Source: Synergistaceae bacterium (GTDB taxonomy: Bacteria; Synergistota; Synergistia; Synergistales; Aminobacteriaceae). From it: DNA of 36,593 nucleotides. A model generated the notes under the pieces. It did not search any database. It was not told where the DNA came from and was given only the letters and a program-made list of their open reading frames with translations. Numbering within the stretch: the first letter of the stretch is position 1; each line of letters opens with the position of its first letter. A program made the position numbers and the translations under genes. This document shows positions 9,783 through 35,358 of this stretch, in pieces. The DNA lies in assembly GCA_031276855.1 (NCBI GenBank), contig JAISMH010000040.1, positions 1 to 36,593 on the forward strand, read 5' to 3'.

Positions 9783-9905
9783 TGGGTCTGGCAGGGGGGT
9801 AAGATTCCTCGTCTTTTTATGCGGAGGGCCCGTCCCCGCCCAACGGGCGGCATTCTCTCTCGCTTTCACCCACACCCATACCGGGTCCAGGGCCGAAGGC
9901 CCTGG
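9753..9905 (-). repeat. Dispersed ~150-bp repeat, family B, copy 1
   Basis: Two GC palindromes (CCAGGGCC...GGCCCTGG and GCAGGGGCC...GGCCCCTGC) flank a core. On the minus strand the core reads GCCGCCCGTTGGGCGGGG, a variable stretch, then AAAAAGACGAG. A second copy with the same order lies at 22457-22601. This copy supplies the 3' ends of two convergent genes, the threonine aldolase and the LpxK fusion, including both stop codons. Confidence 0.8.
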
Positions 9906-12258
9906 AGATTGAGCAGCGGATTTTCCAGCCCAGTTCCCGGGCGGCGTAGGAGACGACGTCGTCGAGGGCGCCGGGACTGCCCATGCGCACACGTCCGGCA
10001 TCGCTCATTTTTCGGTACAGAGCCGGTGTCGTCAGAACTTTCAGCGCTTGAGCGGCCAAAGCCGAGGCCGTGGGCTCCGTGAGGATCTCCGCGTCCGCCA
10101 GCAGCTTTTTCTGTACGCGCTTGCCTTTTTCGTCGATAGAGATGACCGGAACGCCCATCCCCGCGCAGAGCTGGTTCGCCGTTCCCCCGAGACCTATCAG
10201 CAAAGTCGCCTCCGCCGCGGCCTCCGCCACGCCGCCCAAGTGCAGGCGAATGACGGCGCCCTCCTTCGTCAGACACTCCTTCGTCAGGCAGGGCGGACGG
10301 CCTTCCTCGGATTCGCTGAAACGCCAGCCCTCGCAGGCTTGGGTCAGGCGCTGAAGATCGATCGTCGGTGCCAGGCCCATGACGTAATCGCACGTTTTTC
10401 GAGCCTGAAGGGACTCCACGGCCCCCAGAAGCAGTTTCACGTCGTCGTAGGCCCGCGCCCTGCTCCCCGGCAGAAGCAGAATCCGAGGCCGCGCGGGGAC
10501 GCCGGAGGCGGGGGGGACGGGCACGCCCTCCAGGAGATCCATAATGGGGCTTCCCGCGTAAACCGCGTCCGCTCCCGACTCCGCCAGTTGCGCGGCGGTT
10601 TCGCCGTCGCGGGTCCAAGTCCGAAGGCAGGCGCGGCGTATGATGAACCGTTCGAGCTTCCAATGCCCGCTCAGGTGGACCGTCTTGGCCGTCGCCACGA
10701 AAAGCGGCGCCGTGCCCTGCCCCCAGAGCGTGTGCAGCAGCAGATAAACGTCGCCCACGCAAAGAGGAGTCCGCACCTCCCGCGCCACGGCGCGCCAGTC
10801 GCCCTGCTGGTCCCGAATATGCCCGAACAGCCCCGCCCGCAGGTCCCCCCAGAGGTCGCGCAGACGGTACTTCAAGACACCGCCCGACGGCGTGACGGAC
10901 GGCGTGGAGACGACGGGAAAGCCCTGAATCGTATAGGGCTCGCCGCGCCCCACCAGAGGGAAGGCCATGACCTCGGCCTCCGGAAAGGCGCCGCGCAGTT
11001 TCTTCGCCAGAAGCACCCCGACGGCGTCCTCGCCGTACCCGTTCGACGCCACGACAATGCGCGGACGCAGACGCTCGACCAGCGCGCGCTCGAACCGATC
11101 GGGGTCCTCCAAAACGACGGAAACACGAGGAACGAGCAACGGCTCGTGAGGGGCGTTCGCCCCTTGAGCATTCGCTCCTTTGGCATACACCTCCCTCCAC
11201 GACGGCGGCAGGTTGTAGATGTCCTTTTCCGTGCAGGTCAGAAACTCCGCTCCGCAGGCGGATTTTTCTCTGAGAAGGGACTCCATGTCCCCCTCGGAGT
11301 AGGCGTGATGGTCGAGGAAATGCCGTTCTTTGAGGACAGGAACGCCCTCCTGCGCCAGAGAGCGGGTAAAGCCGGCGGGGTTGCCGATGGCGGAAAAGGC
11401 CATCACCCCGCGCCCGCGGACATCTCCGCCGAAGGCGCAAAAAACGCCCCCGCGCCAGATCGCCCAATCGGAGACCGTGAGGCGCGAGTAAAAAACGCGC
11501 TCTTCGGGCACGAACTCCGTCAGACGCCGCAGGAGGGCGCCGCGCTCGGCGGCGCCGGCCTGATCGGCCTTGGTGACGACGACGATATGGGCCCGCTTCA
11601 GGGCCGACAGGGGCTCGCGCAGAATGCCGGCGGGGATCGGGCGTTCGTTTCCGAAAGGACAGGTCGCGTCGATCAGGACGATGTCCGCGTCGCGCGTGAT
11701 CCGGCGGTGCTGGAAGGCGTCGTCCGCGACGGCCAGGCACACTCCCCTCCGCGCCAGTTCTCTCAGGCCTTTCATGCGGTCGCGCGACACCGCGACGGGA
11801 ACGTCCGGCAGGCGGGAAGAAAGCAGAAGCGGCTCGTCGCCGGCGGCGCGCCGGGCGTTTCCGCCGGCGGGCCCCTCCTCCGTCCTCCCTTCGAGGATTC
11901 TGCCTCCTTTCAAAAGCAGAACATCGGCGTTGTCCCCGCCGTAGCCGCGGCTGACGATACCGGCCGCGAGGCCCTTCTTCAGCATCGCGCGGCAGAGCAT
12001 CTCCACGAACGGGGTCTTGTTGGTGCCGCCGTAAGTGAGGTTTCCCACGCTGATGACCGGAATCGGCGGCTCGCAGACGCGCTTCAGCCCGTGCCGGTAG
12101 AGGAAGTCCACCCACCCGATCCACAGCCTCGCGATCCAGCCGGCGGGTACGAAGAGCGTCCATAAAAAAAAGAGCGGAGAGGAGGGCTCCGCTCCGCGGA
12201 CGAAGTTCATGTAACTTTGCGCTAAACGCGAACAGCAACGGGAAAACATGAGCGGCAC
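9817..12258 (-). CDS. lpxK: Fused tetraacyldisaccharide 4'-kinase (LpxK) and LpxB-like domain protein
   Basis: This 813-residue fusion has an N-terminal LpxK domain (about 25-390). It carries PIPVISVGNLTYGGTNKTPF at residues 67-84, RGYGGDNADVLLLKGG, DAFQHRRITRDADIVLID and CTEKDIYNLP. LpxK phosphorylates the lipid A precursor at the inner membrane. The usual Walker loop GGTGKTP reads GGTNKTP here. From about residue 395 (IVVASNGYGEDAVGVLLAKK) the protein resembles the lipid-A-disaccharide synthase-related family, with ILLLPGSRARAYDDVKLLL. The start is unsure (GTG 12258 or ATG 12249) because no strong ribosome site is seen. The final ~29 residues come from a dispersed repeat. It lies 34 nt downstream of the ferredoxin fusion gene. 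Confidence 0.88.
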   Translation of the reverse strand: MPLMFSRCCSRLAQSYMNFVRGAEPSSPLFFLWTLFVPAGWIARLWIGWVDFLYRHGLKRVCEPPIPVISVGNLTYGGTNKTPFVEMLCRAMLKKGLAAGIVSRGYGGDNADVLLLKGGRILEGRTEEGPAGGNARRAAGDEPLLLSSRLPDVPVAVSRDRMKGLRELARRGVCLAVADDAFQHRRITRDADIVLIDATCPFGNERPIPAGILREPLSALKRAHIVVVTKADQAGAAERGALLRRLTEFVPEERVFYSRLTVSDWAIWRGGVFCAFGGDVRGRGVMAFSAIGNPAGFTRSLAQEGVPVLKERHFLDHHAYSEGDMESLLREKSACGAEFLTCTEKDIYNLPPSWREVYAKGANAQGANAPHEPLLVPRVSVVLEDPDRFERALVERLRPRIVVASNGYGEDAVGVLLAKKLRGAFPEAEVMAFPLVGRGEPYTIQGFPVVSTPSVTPSGGVLKYRLRDLWGDLRAGLFGHIRDQQGDWRAVAREVRTPLCVGDVYLLLHTLWGQGTAPLFVATAKTVHLSGHWKLERFIIRRACLRTWTRDGETAAQLAESGADAVYAGSPIMDLLEGVPVPPASGVPARPRILLLPGSRARAYDDVKLLLGAVESLQARKTCDYVMGLAPTIDLQRLTQACEGWRFSESEEGRPPCLTKECLTKEGAVIRLHLGGVAEAAAEATLLIGLGGTANQLCAGMGVPVISIDEKGKRVQKKLLADAEILTEPTASALAAQALKVLTTPALYRKMSDAGRVRMGSPGALDDVVSYAARELGWKIRCSISRAFGPGPGMGVGESERECRPLGGDGPSA

Positions 12259-12292: not shown

Positions 12293-13594
12293 TTATTCAA
12301 ACGCCGCCTCGAACGCCTCGTGGCTCATCGCCCGGTAGGGTTCGGCGGGTTTGCCGGGAACGTGCAGGGCGCCGGTCGGGCAGAAGCCCACGCATCGCTG
12401 GCAGGATTCGCAAAGTCCGGGCTCCACGGCGGGACAGTCCGCCCCCTCCGCCATCGTGACGGCCCGGGCAGGGCAGTCGCGGACGCAGCGCCCGCAGCGG
12501 ACGCACTTTCCCGGGTCCGCCGTGATCGGGAAAAGCCTGTAAAAGAAATCCCACGGCCTCCGCGTCTGCCCCAGGCGGTACATGAGGCCCGACAGCAGGG
12601 GAATTCCGTTGCTCCACTCCGTCTGTCCCTTCAGGAGGTCGCGGGCGAAAGACCGCGCGTCCAGAAGAGCCCTTTCCGTCCGCAGCGCGTTTTTTTCGAC
12701 CGGCAGCTTCTTGTTGCCGTAATTGCCCGGCATGACAAAAAATTTGGCCGCGATGGGGTTATAGCCTTTCTTCCGCAAAACCTTGCCCAAGGGCCCCTGC
12801 ATTCCTCCGGCAAAGCCGCCGCAAGTGCCCATGACGAAGGCTTCGCGCCCGTCCCCCGCGGGCAGGGAGTCGACGAAACGCCATACCGTCGGGTACGTCG
12901 AAAAGCAGGCGACGGGGAAAGCCAGACCCAAAGCCGCCTCTTCGCCCAGCGGGCCGGGGCAGGGCTTGTCCATACTGCGCAGACGAACCGGCAGGCCCTC
13001 GCGCTTCAGGGTCTCCGCCGCCGCCTGAGCGACCAGAAGGCTGTTCCCCGTGCCGGTAAAGACAAAAAGCTCCACCGAGGCCGCGTGCATCTTCGAGGAA
13101 AGCATCCGCTCCCTCCGCGCCAGAGGCAGCTTGCAGAGGGTGGAGGCCACGCCCCCGACGGTCTTGCGCGCCCCGCCGCGGACGAAACCGACGCGCTCGT
13201 AAAAACCGATCGCGCTGTCCGTGACGTAGACGGAGAGGAACTTCGCCTTCGGCGACTCGGACGAACAGCGCGACGCCGCGCGGGCGATCAGGCGCGACCC
13301 CAGTCCCTTTCCGGCATAACCGGGATGAATATAGAGCATGGACACCTGCTCCGGCCCCTTCGTCTCGATCATTCCGGCCAGAACGCCGGACACGTAAACC
13401 AGCTCATGCCGGTACCCCATCGAAATACGGCGCTCCATCGCCTCCGGCGTGACGTAGCGGTCGAAAACCCTTCGCTCGTCCGGAGTGAGAACGCTTTTTC
13501 CGTCCCCGTCCATGACCTTCGAGACGAGCCGGCAAACCTCTCCGCTCTGTCCGGGGCTCATCGCCCTGAATTCCAGACCCTGAATTTCAGCCAC
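12293..13594 (-). CDS. GNAT acetyltransferase - EFR1-type flavodoxin/ferredoxin fusion
   Basis: This 433-residue protein combines three modules. Residues ~5-155 are a GNAT acyltransferase: SMLYIHPGYAGKGLGSRLIA is the acetyl-CoA loop and SAIGFYERVGF the C-terminal signature. From ~172 comes a flavodoxin-like domain, with the FMN loop VFTGTGNSLLVAQ and then GTCGGFAGGMQGPL. Residues ~368-410 hold two 4Fe-4S motifs, CVRCGRCVRDCP and CESCQRCVGFCP. The last two modules alone form the EFR1 (EF-type ferrodoxin) family; the fused GNAT is unusual. The GTG start has GGGGGGA 8 nt upstream. Substrate and partner are unknown. Confidence 0.85.
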   Translation of the reverse strand: MAEIQGLEFRAMSPGQSGEVCRLVSKVMDGDGKSVLTPDERRVFDRYVTPEAMERRISMGYRHELVYVSGVLAGMIETKGPEQVSMLYIHPGYAGKGLGSRLIARAASRCSSESPKAKFLSVYVTDSAIGFYERVGFVRGGARKTVGGVASTLCKLPLARRERMLSSKMHAASVELFVFTGTGNSLLVAQAAAETLKREGLPVRLRSMDKPCPGPLGEEAALGLAFPVACFSTYPTVWRFVDSLPAGDGREAFVMGTCGGFAGGMQGPLGKVLRKKGYNPIAAKFFVMPGNYGNKKLPVEKNALRTERALLDARSFARDLLKGQTEWSNGIPLLSGLMYRLGQTRRPWDFFYRLFPITADPGKCVRCGRCVRDCPARAVTMAEGADCPAVEPGLCESCQRCVGFCPTGALHVPGKPAEPYRAMSHEAFEAAFE

Positions 13595-15079: not shown

Positions 15080-15202
15080 CTCGAAGGCGCGCGGGAGACG
15101 CTGAAAAATTTTGCCCCGAAATTGGCGATTTGCACGTACCATCTGCCGGACGATCCCGAGGTTTTAGAAAACCTGATCAAAAAAGCCAATCCGGCCTACA
15201 AT
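15080..15202 (+). pseudogene. Inverted fragment of an FkbM methyltransferase gene (3' part)
   Basis: These 123 bp match the minus-strand FkbM gene at 17835-17957 in opposite orientation, with four mismatches by eye. It reads LEGARETLKNFAPKLAIC through DDPEVLENLIKKANPAYN in frame. It has no methyltransferase upstream part and no start. After NPAYN the frame runs into unrelated sequence and stops at 15269-15271. A second short block (15490-15507) matches 17753-17770, also inverted. The spacing between blocks is about 290 bp here and about 65 bp in the other copy, so something was inserted or exchanged here. The surrounding 14993-15515 holds no other recognisable gene apart from the small peptide frame at 15276. 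Confidence 0.85.
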
Positions 15203-15275
15203 GTCCCGCAGGAGAGGCGCCCGAAAACATCCGGGCGGGCTGTCTGGGGGTCTCCCCTCGAAAGGGGGTGAGAGC

Positions 15276-15362
15276 GTGGAGAGAATAATAAAGCTAGCAG
15301 TCGCTGTGGCCCAGCTTCTACTAGCCATCGCCGAACTGATTCGGCTTTTCAAAGCGCACTAA
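15276..15362 (+). CDS. Putative small hydrophobic peptide (28 aa)
   Basis: GTG 15276 to TAA 15360-15362 encodes a 28-residue peptide. It has a hydrophobic helix-forming core (IIKLAVAVAQLLLAIAELI) bounded by charged residues, with a basic end (RLFKAH). AAAGGGGG lies 6 nt upstream, and that site can pair with the preceding TCTCCCCT at 15251-15258, so translation may be held back by structure. A strong hairpin follows at 15421-15453. The peptide type and folded leader recall type I toxins or small membrane peptides, but I recognise no family. It lies in sequence that interrupts the inverted FkbM fragment. It could also be a chance frame. Confidence 0.45.
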   Translation: MERIIKLAVAVAQLLLAIAELIRLFKAH

Positions 15363-15420
15363 TCCTGCCGTAGGGCGTAAGTCCGAGGTGGGGTAAGCCG
15401 CCCCGCTTCGGCAGCCCCGA

Positions 15421-15453
15421 AACAACCGCCTGACCTCTCCCAGGCGGATTGTT
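15421..15453. other. Long hairpin downstream of the small peptide frame
   Basis: CCGCCTG (15426-15432) pairs with CAGGCGG (15441-15447). AACAA and TTGTT extend the stem around one bulged A. The downstream side is only mildly T-rich, so it could be a weak terminator or a structural part of a non-coding or toxin-type RNA covering 15205-15455. Confidence 0.5.
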
Positions 15454-15515
15454 CCCGCAGATATTATAACCCACGTTATGCGGGATGAAAATATCGGCGC
15501 TTTCAATCGCTGCAT

Positions 15516-17657: not shown

Positions 17658-17786
17658 CGGGACGTTTTGCGTCAAACTAAAAAAGCACTCGAAAGGTGAC
17701 CTTACCCCCTTGAACGAATACTCGTCGTCCTCGAACAGCTTATGAACAGCTTATTGAAAGCGCCGATATTGTCATTAGCGATCCCG

Positions 17787-18757
17787 TCATTTCCCAGGCA
17801 CGGACGCAAAGAGTTTGCTCTTTTTCTGCACGATATTGTAGGCTGGATTGGCTTTTTTGATCAGGCTTTCTAAAACCTCGGGATCGTCCGGCAGATGATA
17901 CGTACAAATCGCCAATTTCGGGGCAAAATTTTTCAGCGTCTCCCGCGCGCCTTCGAGCATGTACCGTTCGTAGCCTTCGATATCGGCTTTGATAAAATCG
18001 ACGCGCGTCAATCCGTTCTCTTTTACGAAATCGTCGATTGTCGTGAGTTCCACCTGCTGCACATGCTGTCCTTCCTCCGTGGAGCTTTCCGAGGCAATTT
18101 TGTTGCCGACGGAAACATCTTCTTCTTTAATCAGTGTGCCCGTAGTTTTGACATTGCCCAAACCTTTTTTTACAGGATAAATGTTTTTATTGAGTTTCGC
18201 GGTTTGAAGAAGATACTCATACGAGTCGTCGGCAGGTTCAAAAGCATAGGTCACCGCTCCTTTGACCGAGGCATAGGCCGCAAAGTCTCCTATCCAGCTT
18301 CCCGCGTCCAGGACGATACCCCCCCCCCCGCATTATCCAGCGTCACGTCCACTTGTTCGTTGCGCAGACAGTAAGGTCCATCGGGAAGGTATTCATAAAG
18401 CGCGTTTATTTTTGCCTCGTCATAGCAATCGTTATGCTTCAGATAGACAAGAAAGGTATCATCGACAACATACGCAAGCATAATATCAGCTGCAATACCG
18501 CTATTCAGCATCGGTAAACGAACTTCTTTGAACACGTATACGCCATCTCGCAGATATTTCTTCATACGTTTTACCTTCGCCTTGAAAGGGAGAAGAAGAT
18601 CTTTGTGTGTAAAAGTGGCGATCGTGTAGTTGACATAAGAGAGCATAAATTCCCACAGAGTATATTGACCTGTGTAAACAGCACGGACGCCGATCGAGGT
18701 CAGTTTCCATGCTGTTTTCAGTTTCCTGAATATGACTTTTGCGATGTTGAGACTCAT
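17787..18757 (-). CDS. FkbM family methyltransferase, out of frame at a poly-G tract
   Basis: Two frames together make one protein of about 322-323 residues. The first (18757 to the tract) gives an N-terminal part ending CLRNEQVDVTLDNAGGG. The second, entered within the tract, continues IVLDAGSWIGDFAAYASVKG, then TYAFEP and LTRVDFIKADIEGYERYML. These are the SAM-binding motif I and the later motifs of FkbM methyltransferases. They are O-methyltransferases often acting on surface glycans. Eleven G residues separate the frames; nine or twelve would restore the reading frame, so expression may be switched by slippage. AAGGA stands before the ATG, and a TATAAT box is seen at 18831-18826. A partial inverted copy lies at 15080-15202. 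Sequencing error is the alternative. Confidence 0.82.
18319..18329. repeat. Poly-C/G tract (11 bases) inside the methyltransferase gene
   Basis: Eleven C on the plus strand give eleven G in the coding strand, exactly where the reading frame breaks. Tracts of this length are typical slippage sites for on/off switching of surface-modification genes. One base more, or two fewer, restores the protein. Confidence 0.8.
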
Positions 18758-18932
18758 GGTATTCCTTCTTTCTTATCAAAATACCGGCCTGAAGCCGAGG
18801 GCGAAACATAGTATCCGTTAGGTTCATTATACATGTACATTTATACAATTTCCTGAACGCTTAAAAATACAATGTCCTTTTCCGCGGGAGCGGTTACACT
18901 TAACGTGAAATCGCAAAAAGGAGCGTGCGGAC

Positions 18933-27537: not shown

Positions 27538-27738
27538 GTAAACGTTCAAGCTCAGGGGGCGGAGTTCGTTCGCCCCAAAGCGGGCTCACTTAAGCAGACG
27601 ACCAATAAGCGAAGCAAATTGTGTCGGTCGCTTACCCGCGCGACAGTTTGCGCGGAGTATGCCCCCCCGAGACCCCCCCCCCCCCGTGTGATAAACGCCT
27701 GTCTTAACGAACATGGCAGACGAGGTTTGAACGGTTAC
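27538..27738 (+). mobile_element. MITE-like element, left copy (~201 bp)
   Basis: The element begins GTAAACGTTCAAGCTC and ends with the inverted counterpart GAGGTTTGAACGGTTAC, giving imperfect terminal inverted repeats of about 13-16 bp. Possible target duplications are TCTGTCTT just before and TTTGTCTT just after (one mismatch in eight). An inverted, clearly related copy lies at 30597-30791. This copy carries a 13-base poly-C run at 27673-27685. It encodes nothing recognisable and fills the gap between the CoA-transferase and HAD genes. Confidence 0.75.
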
Positions 27739-28535: not shown

Positions 28536-30302
28536 TCATTTCAGCCGCTCATACCCTCGCTTGATAACCTTTGCCATAAGGACGCGACGTTTGGTCAGGA
28601 AGTCCGCATACTCCATCTGCTCCCATCCATCGGGCAAGGCGTGGTCAGCATAAATACCATCTTTCTTGTCATCGGGGATTTTCGCAAGCTGTTCTTTCAT
28701 GTACTCGGCAGGGCTTGTGTCGAGTATCTCTATGTTGTCGCTCCATTCAATAAAAGCGTAGTTCGCGTTTTGGTTACGGTCGCGGTCGTCGGTGATGCCG
28801 ATTCTGGCGAGGTACGCTTTGGGGAACAAATGGTGGCGTTCCAGAGCGGATTTGGCGCCATCGGCGGTCGGACTGAACAATTCCCTCGTTTGCAGGGTTG
28901 AAAACAGCACATTTGAACCGAGTATATTAAGAGCTGCGCAGTAGCCGAACCACGAGGGGTTTCGAGGCGCCGAGTTCGCCAGATTGCCCGACAAAGTAAT
29001 ATCAAAGAAGTCTCCGGTGAACACGGCGGTGATTTTATTACCAAGCAGCGTAACAAATGTATCGGCTGTTTTCACGCTTCGCAGGTCGGCCAAGTCGGAT
29101 TCCATATCCGTTTCGGGAGAGCCTGTGTAATAGCCTGTGACGGCCGTCATAAAGAACCACTTCGCTATCAGTTTGCGGAGTACGGATTCCTCCATGCCGT
29201 AGTCGAACTTGCCAATCAGGTACATCACATAGGCATAGACCAGAGCGTTCTCCGAGGAGATCAAAGCCTTGGATACAAAGCCCGCTGCCTCCACGCACTT
29301 TATGAAGTTTTTCCAGACTTGGACGTTCAGCACTTTATCAAGCACTGTTTTTAGCTTGCCAAACTGCCGGACACGGAGGTCTTCCGAGTAAATGCCGTTC
29401 TCAAAGTCGCGTCCGCGAAGGAGCATATAAGCGTAGTGAAGCCGTGCCCTATGGAAGCCATAGCTCATCGCCGCACGGACGATATGGGTCGGCGACGGTT
29501 GGAACAGGAAATTGTAAGGTGTTCCTGCCTTGGGGATTTTCGCACTCCGGCAGAACTCTGCGATTTTATGCCTGCCTTCAGGCCAGTAAACCGAGATGAG
29601 AGTCAGGATAAAATCATCCTCACCGAGTTTCTCGCCGCCCGAATTCACGCGTACAAAGATATCGGCGACGCTTTCCTCGTCGGCATTTCCGTTAATTTCA
29701 AGCGTCGGTACGCTGAAACTGCCAAGCGAAAGCAAGTCCATTATGTTCTGTTGGATGGACTGTCTTTCGTCGTCGGTAAGGGACAAGCCGGCTTTCTCGC
29801 GGCTTTCGGCCATACTCTGGGCTTTTTCTGAGATGTAGGCAAAACTCCTCGGTTCGTTCAGGAAGACCTCGCTGATATCGTAAATCCACTCGGCAGATCG
29901 CTTCTTAGCGTTATCGCCGACCTCAAAGACTCTGGTCAGCGGGTTGAACGAGATAATAATCGGCTTCTCATTGAACTTCTCGTCCACGATTTTCTTGCCG
30001 CGCATGACGGCAAAGAGCGAGGTCAGACGCTGCTGTCCGTCAATGACGAGGCTTTTCGGCGCAGAGAATGCCTTGCCGTCGGTTCCTATCTGCTTGCTCT
30101 TTTCCGTGCCGTCCGCCGAATCCCAAATCATCAGGTAGCCGATGGGATAGCCCTTAAACATGGAATCAAGCAGGTCACGGACTTTCGTGGTTTTCCAGAC
30201 ATAGCCGCGTTGAAGTTCCGGCAGACCGAGTTTGCCGCTTTCGACCTCCATGATGAGGTCTTTCAGTATGCGCGGAACCGGTGTGAACAACATCTTTGCC
30301 AT
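28536..30302 (-). CDS. DUF262 and HNH (DUF1524) domain protein, GmrSD-like restriction type
   Basis: This 588-residue protein starts with a DUF262 domain: GKLGLPELQRGYVWKTTKVR, YPIGYLMIW and the hallmark VIDGQQRLTSL (Asp88-Arg92). DUF262 proteins of the GmrS class hydrolyse nucleotides and work in restriction of modified phage DNA. The C-terminus has an HNH-like nuclease motif, RHHLFPKAYL (His490/His491) with NQNANYAFIEW, matching DUF1524 (GmrD class). Both halves in one chain are known for type IV restriction enzymes. Its GC content is lower than its neighbours, suggesting transfer. A broken DNA methyltransferase start lies directly upstream on the same strand. Confidence 0.87.
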   Translation of the reverse strand: MAKMLFTPVPRILKDLIMEVESGKLGLPELQRGYVWKTTKVRDLLDSMFKGYPIGYLMIWDSADGTEKSKQIGTDGKAFSAPKSLVIDGQQRLTSLFAVMRGKKIVDEKFNEKPIIISFNPLTRVFEVGDNAKKRSAEWIYDISEVFLNEPRSFAYISEKAQSMAESREKAGLSLTDDERQSIQQNIMDLLSLGSFSVPTLEINGNADEESVADIFVRVNSGGEKLGEDDFILTLISVYWPEGRHKIAEFCRSAKIPKAGTPYNFLFQPSPTHIVRAAMSYGFHRARLHYAYMLLRGRDFENGIYSEDLRVRQFGKLKTVLDKVLNVQVWKNFIKCVEAAGFVSKALISSENALVYAYVMYLIGKFDYGMEESVLRKLIAKWFFMTAVTGYYTGSPETDMESDLADLRSVKTADTFVTLLGNKITAVFTGDFFDITLSGNLANSAPRNPSWFGYCAALNILGSNVLFSTLQTRELFSPTADGAKSALERHHLFPKAYLARIGITDDRDRNQNANYAFIEWSDNIEILDTSPAEYMKEQLAKIPDDKKDGIYADHALPDGWEQMEYADFLTKRRVLMAKVIKRGYERLK

Positions 30303-32475: not shown

Positions 32476-35358
32476 ATGAAAAAGCGGTTTTCCGAGGCGG
32501 CCAGTGCGCTTTGGGCGAAAAAATCGAAATATCCCGCGGCGGGCGGCGAGAGTCTTTGGCTGCCGCTCCATTCGCATATGAGCGACGCCGCCGAAACGGC
32601 GCGGCATCTCTGGGACGATTGGCTGCCGAAGGGCACAAAAAAAGCGATCGCGTCCGGCGTCTCTCCGTCGGTGTACGGAGAGGGGGATTTCGTGCGCGCG
32701 CGGCAGGTTTTCGTTTTCCTCGCCGCCGCTCACGACCTCGGCAAGGCGTCTCCGGCCTTTCAGTCGAAGGGAGTGCCGTCAATGGAGCGGCTCAATGAAT
32801 TTCTGCGCCAAAATATCCGCGGCGCCGGGCTGTGTCTGGAAAAACATTCGGAGTATCAGGGGAACGCCTCCACGTATCATTCGCTTGTTTCCCACCTCAT
32901 TCTGGAACGCCGCGGTTATGACGAAAGCGTCTCCGTGGTGGCGGGCGCTCATCACGGCAAGCCGCCGGACGTGGGGCAAGTGAGGGATTGCGCTCTTTAT
33001 GAACGCGGCTGCGGGTCGAACGATGAAAACTGGAAGAGCGTACAAAAGGAACTCCTGGACCACGCGCTTGCGCTCGCCGGACTGGAAGAGACCGACGCCG
33101 TCAAGGTCACGCTGGAGAAGACGGTACAAGTTCTTCTGAGCGGGCTTGTCATCCTGACGGACTGGATTTCGAGCGACGAAAAGCTGTTTCCGCTGGTCGA
33201 TGCGGAATGCTTTCGGGGCGCGGAAGATTCTTCGGTGCGCGCCCGCAGGGCGTGGGGAGAGCTGAATTTAACGCCGTTCTGGGAAACGGCGCAGGACTGG
33301 GACGGCCTGTTCGGGCGGCGATTCAAGTTTGCCCGGGGACCGCTGCCGCTGCAGAAAACTCTGCTCGAAACCGTCGAAACTTGCCTCAAACCCGGAATTG
33401 TGGTCGTGGAGGCCCCGATGGGCGGGGGAAAAACCGAAGCGGCACTGGCGGCGGCGGAGGTTTTGGCGCACCTCACGGGACGCGGCGGCCTGCTGTTCGC
33501 TCTGCCGACTCAGGCAACCTCCGACGCGATGTTCGGCCGCATTCTCAAGTGGATTGAGCGTCTCGGCACGGGCGAGAAGCACAGCGTCCTGCTGGCGCAC
33601 GGCAAGGCCGATTTCAACGAAGCCTACAGGGAAATAGAGCGTTTCGGCCCGGGCAGTATGAACGGCGCGCTGATGGCGTACGACAAGGCCGACTTCAACG
33701 AAATTTACCAAAAAATCGGCTTGTCCGAAAACACTCATGTCGGCGACACCGAAGACGGCGAAGACGTTGTCGTTCACGAATGGCTTTCCGGACGAAAAAA
33801 GAGCTTATTGGCCGATTTTGTCATAGGGACGATCGACCAGCTCCTTTTGGCGGGGCTCAAACAGAAACATCTGATGCTGCGTCACCTGGGACTCGCGAAC
33901 AAGGTGGTCGTCATCGACGAATGCCATGCCTACGATACCTACATGAGCCGTTATCTGTTCAAGGTCTTGTCCTGGCTGGGCGCGTACGGAACGCCGGTGA
34001 TCGTCCTCTCCGCGACGCTGCCGTCCGAAAAGCGCAAACAGCTTATCGACGCCTATTTGAATAAAATCGAAAAAGACGACTACGATCCGCTGTTCGACAA
34101 TGAAAGAAAAAAACCTGAAACGCCTAAATGGAGCCTCTCACGCGAATATCCGCTGATCACCTACAGCGACGGCAAAGAGATAAAACAAAAGTCCGTCGCC
34201 GGGGAAAAACGGCAGCGTACCGTATCGATTCGCTGTCTGAACGACGAGGCCATCGCGGACACCTTGGAAGAATCGCTTTCCGGCGGAGGCTGCGCCGGGG
34301 TCGTTGTCAACACGGTCAGGCGAGCGCAGGAGTTTTATGACAAGATCTCGGAACGCTTTGGCAGGGAGTGCGTTCGGCTGCTCCATTCGCGCTTCATTGC
34401 GCCCGACCGTTCCGATAAAGAAAAGGAACTTCTGGAGATGCTGGGCTCCGACGGCACGAAACGCCCCGAAAAACTCATCGTGATCGGAACGCAGGTTTTG
34501 GAGCAGTCGCTCGATTTGGACTTTGACCTGCTCATCACCGATCTCTGCCCGATGGATCTGCTGATCCAGAGAATAGGGCGTCAACACAGACATGACCGCC
34601 CGCGCCCGAAGAAATTGCGAAACGCCGTCTGTTACGTGTTGGGCGTGAACGGCGAAGATTTTGAAGGCGGTTCGAAAAAAATCTACGGCGAGTATCTGCT
34701 GATGCGGACAAAAGCGTTCCTGCCCGCTGAAATCACCCTGCCGGACTCCATTCCGACCCTCGTACAGGATGTCTATGACGAGAAAAAAGACGCCCTTATC
34801 GATTCCGCGGACAGAGAAAGATATGAAGCCGCGCGGGAAGAAAAGGAAAAACGAAGCAAAAGCCAGGAGCGTCGGGCGTGCGCGTTTCAAATCCCATCGC
34901 CGCCATCGTCCGAGTCTTCGGACACTCTTGTCGGCTGGCTGGACACAGACGTTTCGGAGGGAAAAGGCGAAGCCCATGTCAGAGACGGAGCGGATTCTCT
35001 CGAGGTTATCGTCATTCAAAAGATCCGCGACACTCTGCGTCTTTTGCCGTGGATAAGGGGCGGGGCAGAAATTCCGCGCGGCCAAACGCCCGACGAACAT
35101 CTGGCGCGCGCACTCTCGGGCTGCCGCCTCCGCCTGCCGTCGGAGTTGGATGCAAAATGGCTGCTTGATGATACTATTAAGAAACTGGAAGCAATTTGCG
35201 CGGAAGAGCATTTGGAAGAATGGCAGAAGTCGAAATGGCTGAGGGGGGAATTATTTCTGATATTGGACGAGGCTTGCAAGACGGAACTTTGCGGTTGTCA
35301 GCTTGAGTACGATCGAGATAAGGGATTGATTTCCCGGAGATTGGAGCGTCAAGCATGA
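32476..35358 (+). CDS. cas3: CRISPR-associated helicase/nuclease Cas3 (type I-E)
   Basis: This 960-residue protein has an N-terminal HD nuclease (about 25-280), with LHSHMSDAAETA, the HD pair in AAAHDLGKASPAF (His86-Asp87), YHSLVSHL and AGAHHGKPP. A superfamily 2 helicase follows: motif I APMGGGKTEAAL (GGGKT 316-320), motif II VVIDECHAYDTYMSR (Asp481-His484), motif III LSATLPS and motif VI QRIGRQHRHDRPR. Cas3 degrades DNA displaced by Cascade. It is slightly longer than usual; one cause is a 27-residue tandem duplication at 33589-33750. Its stop overlaps the cse1 start (ATGA), and cse1 next door assigns subtype I-E. Confidence 0.96.
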   Translation: MKKRFSEAASALWAKKSKYPAAGGESLWLPLHSHMSDAAETARHLWDDWLPKGTKKAIASGVSPSVYGEGDFVRARQVFVFLAAAHDLGKASPAFQSKGVPSMERLNEFLRQNIRGAGLCLEKHSEYQGNASTYHSLVSHLILERRGYDESVSVVAGAHHGKPPDVGQVRDCALYERGCGSNDENWKSVQKELLDHALALAGLEETDAVKVTLEKTVQVLLSGLVILTDWISSDEKLFPLVDAECFRGAEDSSVRARRAWGELNLTPFWETAQDWDGLFGRRFKFARGPLPLQKTLLETVETCLKPGIVVVEAPMGGGKTEAALAAAEVLAHLTGRGGLLFALPTQATSDAMFGRILKWIERLGTGEKHSVLLAHGKADFNEAYREIERFGPGSMNGALMAYDKADFNEIYQKIGLSENTHVGDTEDGEDVVVHEWLSGRKKSLLADFVIGTIDQLLLAGLKQKHLMLRHLGLANKVVVIDECHAYDTYMSRYLFKVLSWLGAYGTPVIVLSATLPSEKRKQLIDAYLNKIEKDDYDPLFDNERKKPETPKWSLSREYPLITYSDGKEIKQKSVAGEKRQRTVSIRCLNDEAIADTLEESLSGGGCAGVVVNTVRRAQEFYDKISERFGRECVRLLHSRFIAPDRSDKEKELLEMLGSDGTKRPEKLIVIGTQVLEQSLDLDFDLLITDLCPMDLLIQRIGRQHRHDRPRPKKLRNAVCYVLGVNGEDFEGGSKKIYGEYLLMRTKAFLPAEITLPDSIPTLVQDVYDEKKDALIDSADRERYEAAREEKEKRSKSQERRACAFQIPSPPSSESSDTLVGWLDTDVSEGKGEAHVRDGADSLEVIVIQKIRDTLRLLPWIRGGAEIPRGQTPDEHLARALSGCRLRLPSELDAKWLLDDTIKKLEAICAEEHLEEWQKSKWLRGELFLILDEACKTELCGCQLEYDRDKGLISRRLERQA
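33589..33750 (+). repeat. 81-bp tandem duplication within cas3
   Basis: Two in-frame units of 81 bp (33589-33669 and 33670-33750) encode LLAHGKADFNEAYREI and LMAYDKADFNEIYQKI. The copies have diverged, so the duplication is not recent. It lies between helicase motif I and the DECH box, where other type I-E Cas3 proteins have a single HGK-type segment. Confidence 0.65.

Follow-up and report, generated by a model that had tools for sequence, protein, structure and literature searches.

The fkbM gene in the 36,593-nucleotide stretch of Synergistaceae DNA analysed here (the window) is probably a translational phase-variation locus of the poly-G slipped-strand contingency type, sequenced in its OFF state. 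The earlier note had claimed that the reading frame of this gene breaks exactly within a run of 11 G, and that 9 or 12 G would rejoin the halves into a protein of 322-323 residues. Both claims hold, since the plus strand carries C11 at 18319-18329, which is G11 on the fkbM coding strand, with different frames on its two sides, and simulated tract lengths agree with the rejoining at 9 and 12 G and with its failure at 10 and 11 G. The features of the locus, and of a related remnant in the window, are the following.

18784..18798, minus strand: leader hairpin, in this genome common only to fkbM and its paralog on contig C109
18763..18769, minus strand: AGAAGGA, resembling a ribosome-binding site by eye, 5 bases before the ATG
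18290..18757, minus strand: upstream ORF (N-terminal part) of 155 codons, with its stop nine codons past the tract
18319..18329, minus strand: poly-G tract, 11 G on the coding strand and then TAT, read from the sequence
17787..18317, minus strand: downstream part of fkbM in a different frame, through the stop codon
17910..18314, minus strand: FkbM methyltransferase domain, residues 148-282 of the joined protein (TIGR01444, E 1.1e-23; PF05050, E 6.7e-18)
15080..15220, plus strand: inverted 141-bp remnant of another close relative of the gene, a third fkbM copy, from its 3′ part (92% identity over 141 bp)

On the minus strand G11 (18329-18319) is followed by TATCGTCCTGGAC. Among the simulated lengths 9, 12 or 15 G turned both halves into one protein of 322-324 aa, and 6 G also joined them, the products over 6, 9, 12 and 15 G being 321-324 aa long. 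With 7, 10 or 13 G a stop was reached 26 codons past the tract and with 8, 11 or 14 G nine codons past it, giving products of 172 aa at 10 G and 155 aa at 11 G, and from 11 G the nearest ON length is one additional G. The tract is thus a long homopolymer within a frame beyond chance expectation, a change in its length toggles between a full-length (9, 12 or 15 G) and a truncated (10 or 11 G) product, and coding is intact on both sides of it, with no other stop, frameshift or excess of amino-acid change.

Replication slippage would add or remove G here. In a gene with 9, 12 or 15 G the ribosome would continue into the FkbM methyltransferase domain (ON), and at 10 or 11 G it would stop 26 or 9 codons past the tract, leaving about 146 N-terminal residues followed by junk and no catalytic domain (OFF). 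The sequenced 11 G would represent the OFF state, one +1 slip from ON, and the paralog carries an equivalent tract. FkbM enzymes are O-methyltransferases, and when made this one would most likely O-methylate a sugar of a surface glycan. Slippage at this tract, expression of the gene, the substrate and the surface role are what we infer from the DNA sequence.

The encoded enzyme and its paralogous copies

Membership of the FkbM family is supported by two profiles above their curated cut-offs: TIGR01444 (fkbM_fam) matches the joined protein at residues 148-282 with 84.3 bits (cut-off 37.7), and PF05050 matches the downstream half alone with 65.8 bits (cut-off 22.7). Like other members of the family, the protein has a complete domain and a K-x-DIEG motif, which aligns with structure 2PY6. 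It differs in about 145 N-terminal residues, for which no Pfam match was found, and just before the domain, where the usual PGD is replaced by a Gly run and the sequence is two residues longer. The domain lies wholly downstream of the tract, and the tract-encoded Gly 144-146 immediately precede its first strand, so that the OFF product would lack the whole enzyme. This position of the tract before the entire catalytic domain, together with the frame rule, argues for a contingency locus. Structure predictions of the joined protein and four relatives (mean pLDDT 39) were too poor to use.

At the tract site the intact relatives have, for example, VEAGDIVFDVGSWIGDF or VEPGDIVIDAGSWIGDF, which is two residues shorter and has no Gly run; the tract was therefore added in this lineage. 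A tract shared by orthologs was sought in the Synergistaceae and none was found, orthologs of other genera lacking it. By sequence comparison, the tract is lineage-specific and its exact site is conserved no further than the paralog.

Non-synonymous divergence (pN) of the downstream half against five intact relatives was 0.18-0.25, compared to 0.16-0.21 among the intact relatives themselves, and the upstream half showed a similar pattern, although it must be noted that a very recent break looks identical to a switch state in this test. The downstream half has undergone no accelerated amino-acid change and there is therefore no sign of long decay, which also favours a contingency locus. In this respect the earlier suggestion that the intact motifs speak against long decay is borne out, as neither half carries a further stop or frameshift and pN is not raised relative to intact relatives.

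Contig C109 starts inside an identical G11-TA tract and runs on into the N-terminal half of a second fkbM, which is 77% identical in nucleotides to the window gene and has its G11 at the same codon. Within this genome the leader hairpin was found only at these two genes; a search of the assembly did not turn up the missing half of the paralog. The G11 at the same codon and the shared leader both argue for a contingency locus. The survival of an 11-base run by chance through about 19% divergence of the N-terminal half is estimated at about one in ten, so that the tract of the paralog, taken alone, is modest evidence, and the two genes may possibly share it through gene conversion. Six FkbM genes are known in this genome, the C109 copy included, and three of them carry tracts, the third being a gene on contig C160 with G10 and a shifted frame.

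The remnant at 15080..15220 belongs to a larger pair of inverted repeats. Positions 15080-15507 match 17753-17957 in a 141-bp fragment of fkbM (92%) and a stretch of 23 bp (96%), shared in the same order with the 3′ end of fkbM. The arrangement resembles an inverted duplication of some age, one copy of which has received an insert of about 270 bp. Inside that insert a small ORF (15276-15362, plus strand) encodes a 28-aa hydrophobic peptide, MERIIKLAVAVAQLLLAIAELIRLFKAH, which by eye resembles small membrane peptides, e.g. type I toxins or holin-like peptides.

Long G runs in the window, the genome and the family

The window has a G+C content of 61%. Under a first-order Markov model 0.058 G/C runs of at least 11 are expected in its 36.6 kb and 2 are observed, while 30 runs of at least 6 are expected and 15 are observed. 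Short runs are hence depleted and very long runs are in excess in the window. Scaled to the genome, about 3.8 runs of at least 11 are expected and 11 were observed. Across the other genes of the window (28.3 kb) G/C runs reach 7 at most, and the nine other Gly-Gly-Gly sites in window genes use mixed codons and never one homopolymer. The excess of very long runs and the absence of any run longer than 7 from the other genes of the window further suggest a contingency locus. The second long run of the window, C13 at 27673-27685 (G13 on the minus strand), is intergenic and lies inside a dispersed repeat, in a repeat-like element upstream of a CoA-transferase gene. Elements resembling it, with variable G runs, are present on contigs C42, C129, C139 and C174.

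The tracts of this genome were sampled by search and from fetched regions, in which about 18 runs of at least 10 were found. The tracts inside reading frames other than those of the FkbM genes are in frame and occur in a GT4 glycosyltransferase (C179, G10), a VOC-fold protein (PF13669; C81, G12) and a GLUG/Big_2 surface-type protein (C15, G13). One tract, close to the 3′ end of a C88 reading frame, is ambiguous, and the remaining long runs look intergenic, several of them within a dispersed repeat. Judged from their sequences, such a mixture of in-frame and shifted tract genes would be expected of a contingency gene set. On contigs C109, C15, C27, C56, C118 and C174 long G/C runs lie less than about 110 bp from the contig ends, far above expectation, which reflects either a mixture of tract lengths or G runs that sequenced poorly. 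The idea that the tracts persist because mismatch repair was lost was rejected, as MutS_I and MutL domains are present in this genome and in most relatives.

In the family, GGGGGGGGGGTAT was found in 37 of 83 genomes and was several-fold commoner than the reversed control. It occurs mostly in genera g1, g8 and g16, is rare elsewhere in the order, and in one genus there are tens of long G tracts per genome. Forty tract regions of the family were fetched and read, and both parts of the tract genes were searched separately. Tracts that shift the frame were found in GT4 genes (L152, L153), GT2 genes (L148, L155), a polysaccharide pyruvyl transferase (L151), an NTP-transferase/PEP-mutase (L154), a cytidylyltransferase (L147) and a methyltransferase of a single-contig genome (L126), and in-frame tracts in methyltransferases (L134, L132), AlgX/DHHW proteins (L143, L144), FdtA (L161) and a subtilase (L133). 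The homologous site of L143 and L144 has 10 and 11 G, one listed as shifted and the other in frame, and lengths also differ between L117 and L140 (11 and 10) and between L120 and L163 (12 and 10). These differences support change of tract length within the family, at sites other than the window locus. Together with the further ORF tracts of this genome, they argue for fkbM being a contingency locus.

In the fetched regions of this genome TAT follows 6 of 17 runs of at least 10 G and 5 of 1381 runs of 4-6 (Fisher P 5e-10 in that sample). It falls in different codon frames after the long runs, so the excess is not simply a constraint at the protein level. Four of the matches to 7 G followed by TAT were ordinary Gly-Gly-Tyr codons of conserved genes, and the signature was for this reason judged only on runs of at least 10. 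In genus g16 TAT or CAT follows 41% of 150 listed long tracts, compared to 7% of short runs; CAT and TAA also occur on the 3′ side of its long tracts, and a TTAC[GT]TA-like sequence is often found on the 5′ side. The excess could possibly come from selection on the flank, from an origin in repeats or from a biased mutational process. That some genera hold a large poly-G repertoire with a frame-independent 3′ boundary (TAT, or loosely pyrimidine-A) is a doubtful generalisation, and if true it would point to a process, directed by sequence, by which tracts arise, are positioned or are maintained rather than to plain selection on homopolymers.

Alternative readings and known systems

Some observations weigh against a contingency locus, namely the lack of the tract in other-genus orthologs, the orphan position of the gene and a promoter scan that found no sigma-70-like promoter at fkbM. 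A search of the window for Rfam elements returned none. An assembly or sequencing error in the homopolymer, with the true length in frame and fkbM simply intact, is unlikely. Short reads are prone to errors in long G runs, and several contigs of the assembly end at or near long G/C runs (e.g. C109, C15, C27, C56, C118), but two separate copies both have 11 G and other tracts of the assembly are in frame. A count that is off by 1-2 would still leave a candidate tract of 9-12 G in an ORF, and an error of this kind alters the present state only and not the kind of locus.

One may also speculate that fkbM is a recent pseudogene whose tract slipped once and which is being lost like other fkbM fragments. 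The 141-bp remnant at 15080-15220 is in line with such a loss, as are the fkbM copies of relatives such as L010 and L024, which are degraded or truncated, and a recent pseudogene would look like a switch locus. This is nevertheless quite improbable given that neither half has a further stop, a frameshift or accelerated change, that the tract is also present in a diverged paralog and that the tracts of other genes are in frame. The least credible explanation, and a very improbable one, is slippage of RNA polymerase or the ribosome, yielding a fixed low output of full-length protein from the out-of-frame gene with the DNA unchanged. Homopolymers can cause transcriptional slippage, and slippage at the transcript or ribosome is compatible with slippage of the DNA. 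However, the cases known to be efficient involve runs of A or T, and homologous sites differ in tract length from gene to gene and from species to species, a change in the DNA itself.

Phase variation by slippage of the tract would resemble that of Campylobacter jejuni cj1426c, a G/C-tract contingency gene of the capsule that encodes a 6-O-methyltransferase (PMC8355987). The likeness lies in the intragenic G tract of similar length, the frame-based on/off control, the switched methyltransferase and the many surface-sugar tract genes in one genome. C. jejuni belongs to another phylum, and its switching and substrate are known, whereas here both are predicted. A further difference is that mismatch repair genes are present in this genome, so switching may be slow. 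In Helicobacter canadensis putative methyltransferases with G11-G13 are among the G-tract genes (PMC2823697); tracts of 9-14 G lie within methyltransferase genes, some annotated as frame-shifted, but that species too is of another phylum, and its length ranges were observed while a single assembly is available here.

Searches of the open-access PMC literature found no tract-based switching described for Synergistetes, Synergistota, Synergistaceae or Fretibacterium, which fits the novelty for the phylum anticipated in the earlier note. A putative DNA inversion has been described in one of two Synergistetes species (PMC5903667), which is a different mechanism. The fkbM locus very probably represents a known kind of switch in a phylum for which this literature yielded no earlier report. 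If this is true, an anaerobic, mostly animal-associated phylum shares a surface-switching strategy for which Campylobacter, Helicobacter and Neisseria are the main known examples, and existing metagenome reads could be used to test for tract-generated surface variability in gut Synergistaceae.

Neighbourhood and possible role of fkbM

The gene is flanked by an outer-membrane efflux gene and a CAAX-type protease and is an orphan outside any glycan cluster. In the Synergistaceae MAG L088 fkbM comes immediately after a gene for a Bac_transf sugar transferase, and most other tract genes fall into the glycan-building or surface class. From the enzyme family, the L088 neighbour and these other tract genes, a surface glycan is a somewhat favoured candidate for the substrate.

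Elsewhere in the window, an 813-aa ORF at 9817-12258 (minus strand) has an LpxK-like (tetraacyldisaccharide 4′-kinase) start and a continuation of the lipid-A-disaccharide-synthase type, and by eye may possibly be a fusion of the two. A GNAT acetyltransferase fused to a 4Fe-4S ferredoxin-type region lies at 12293-13594 (minus strand). The right end of the window (28536-30302 and 32476-35358) holds defence-type genes, a GmrSD_N protein and a Cas3 helicase-nuclease.
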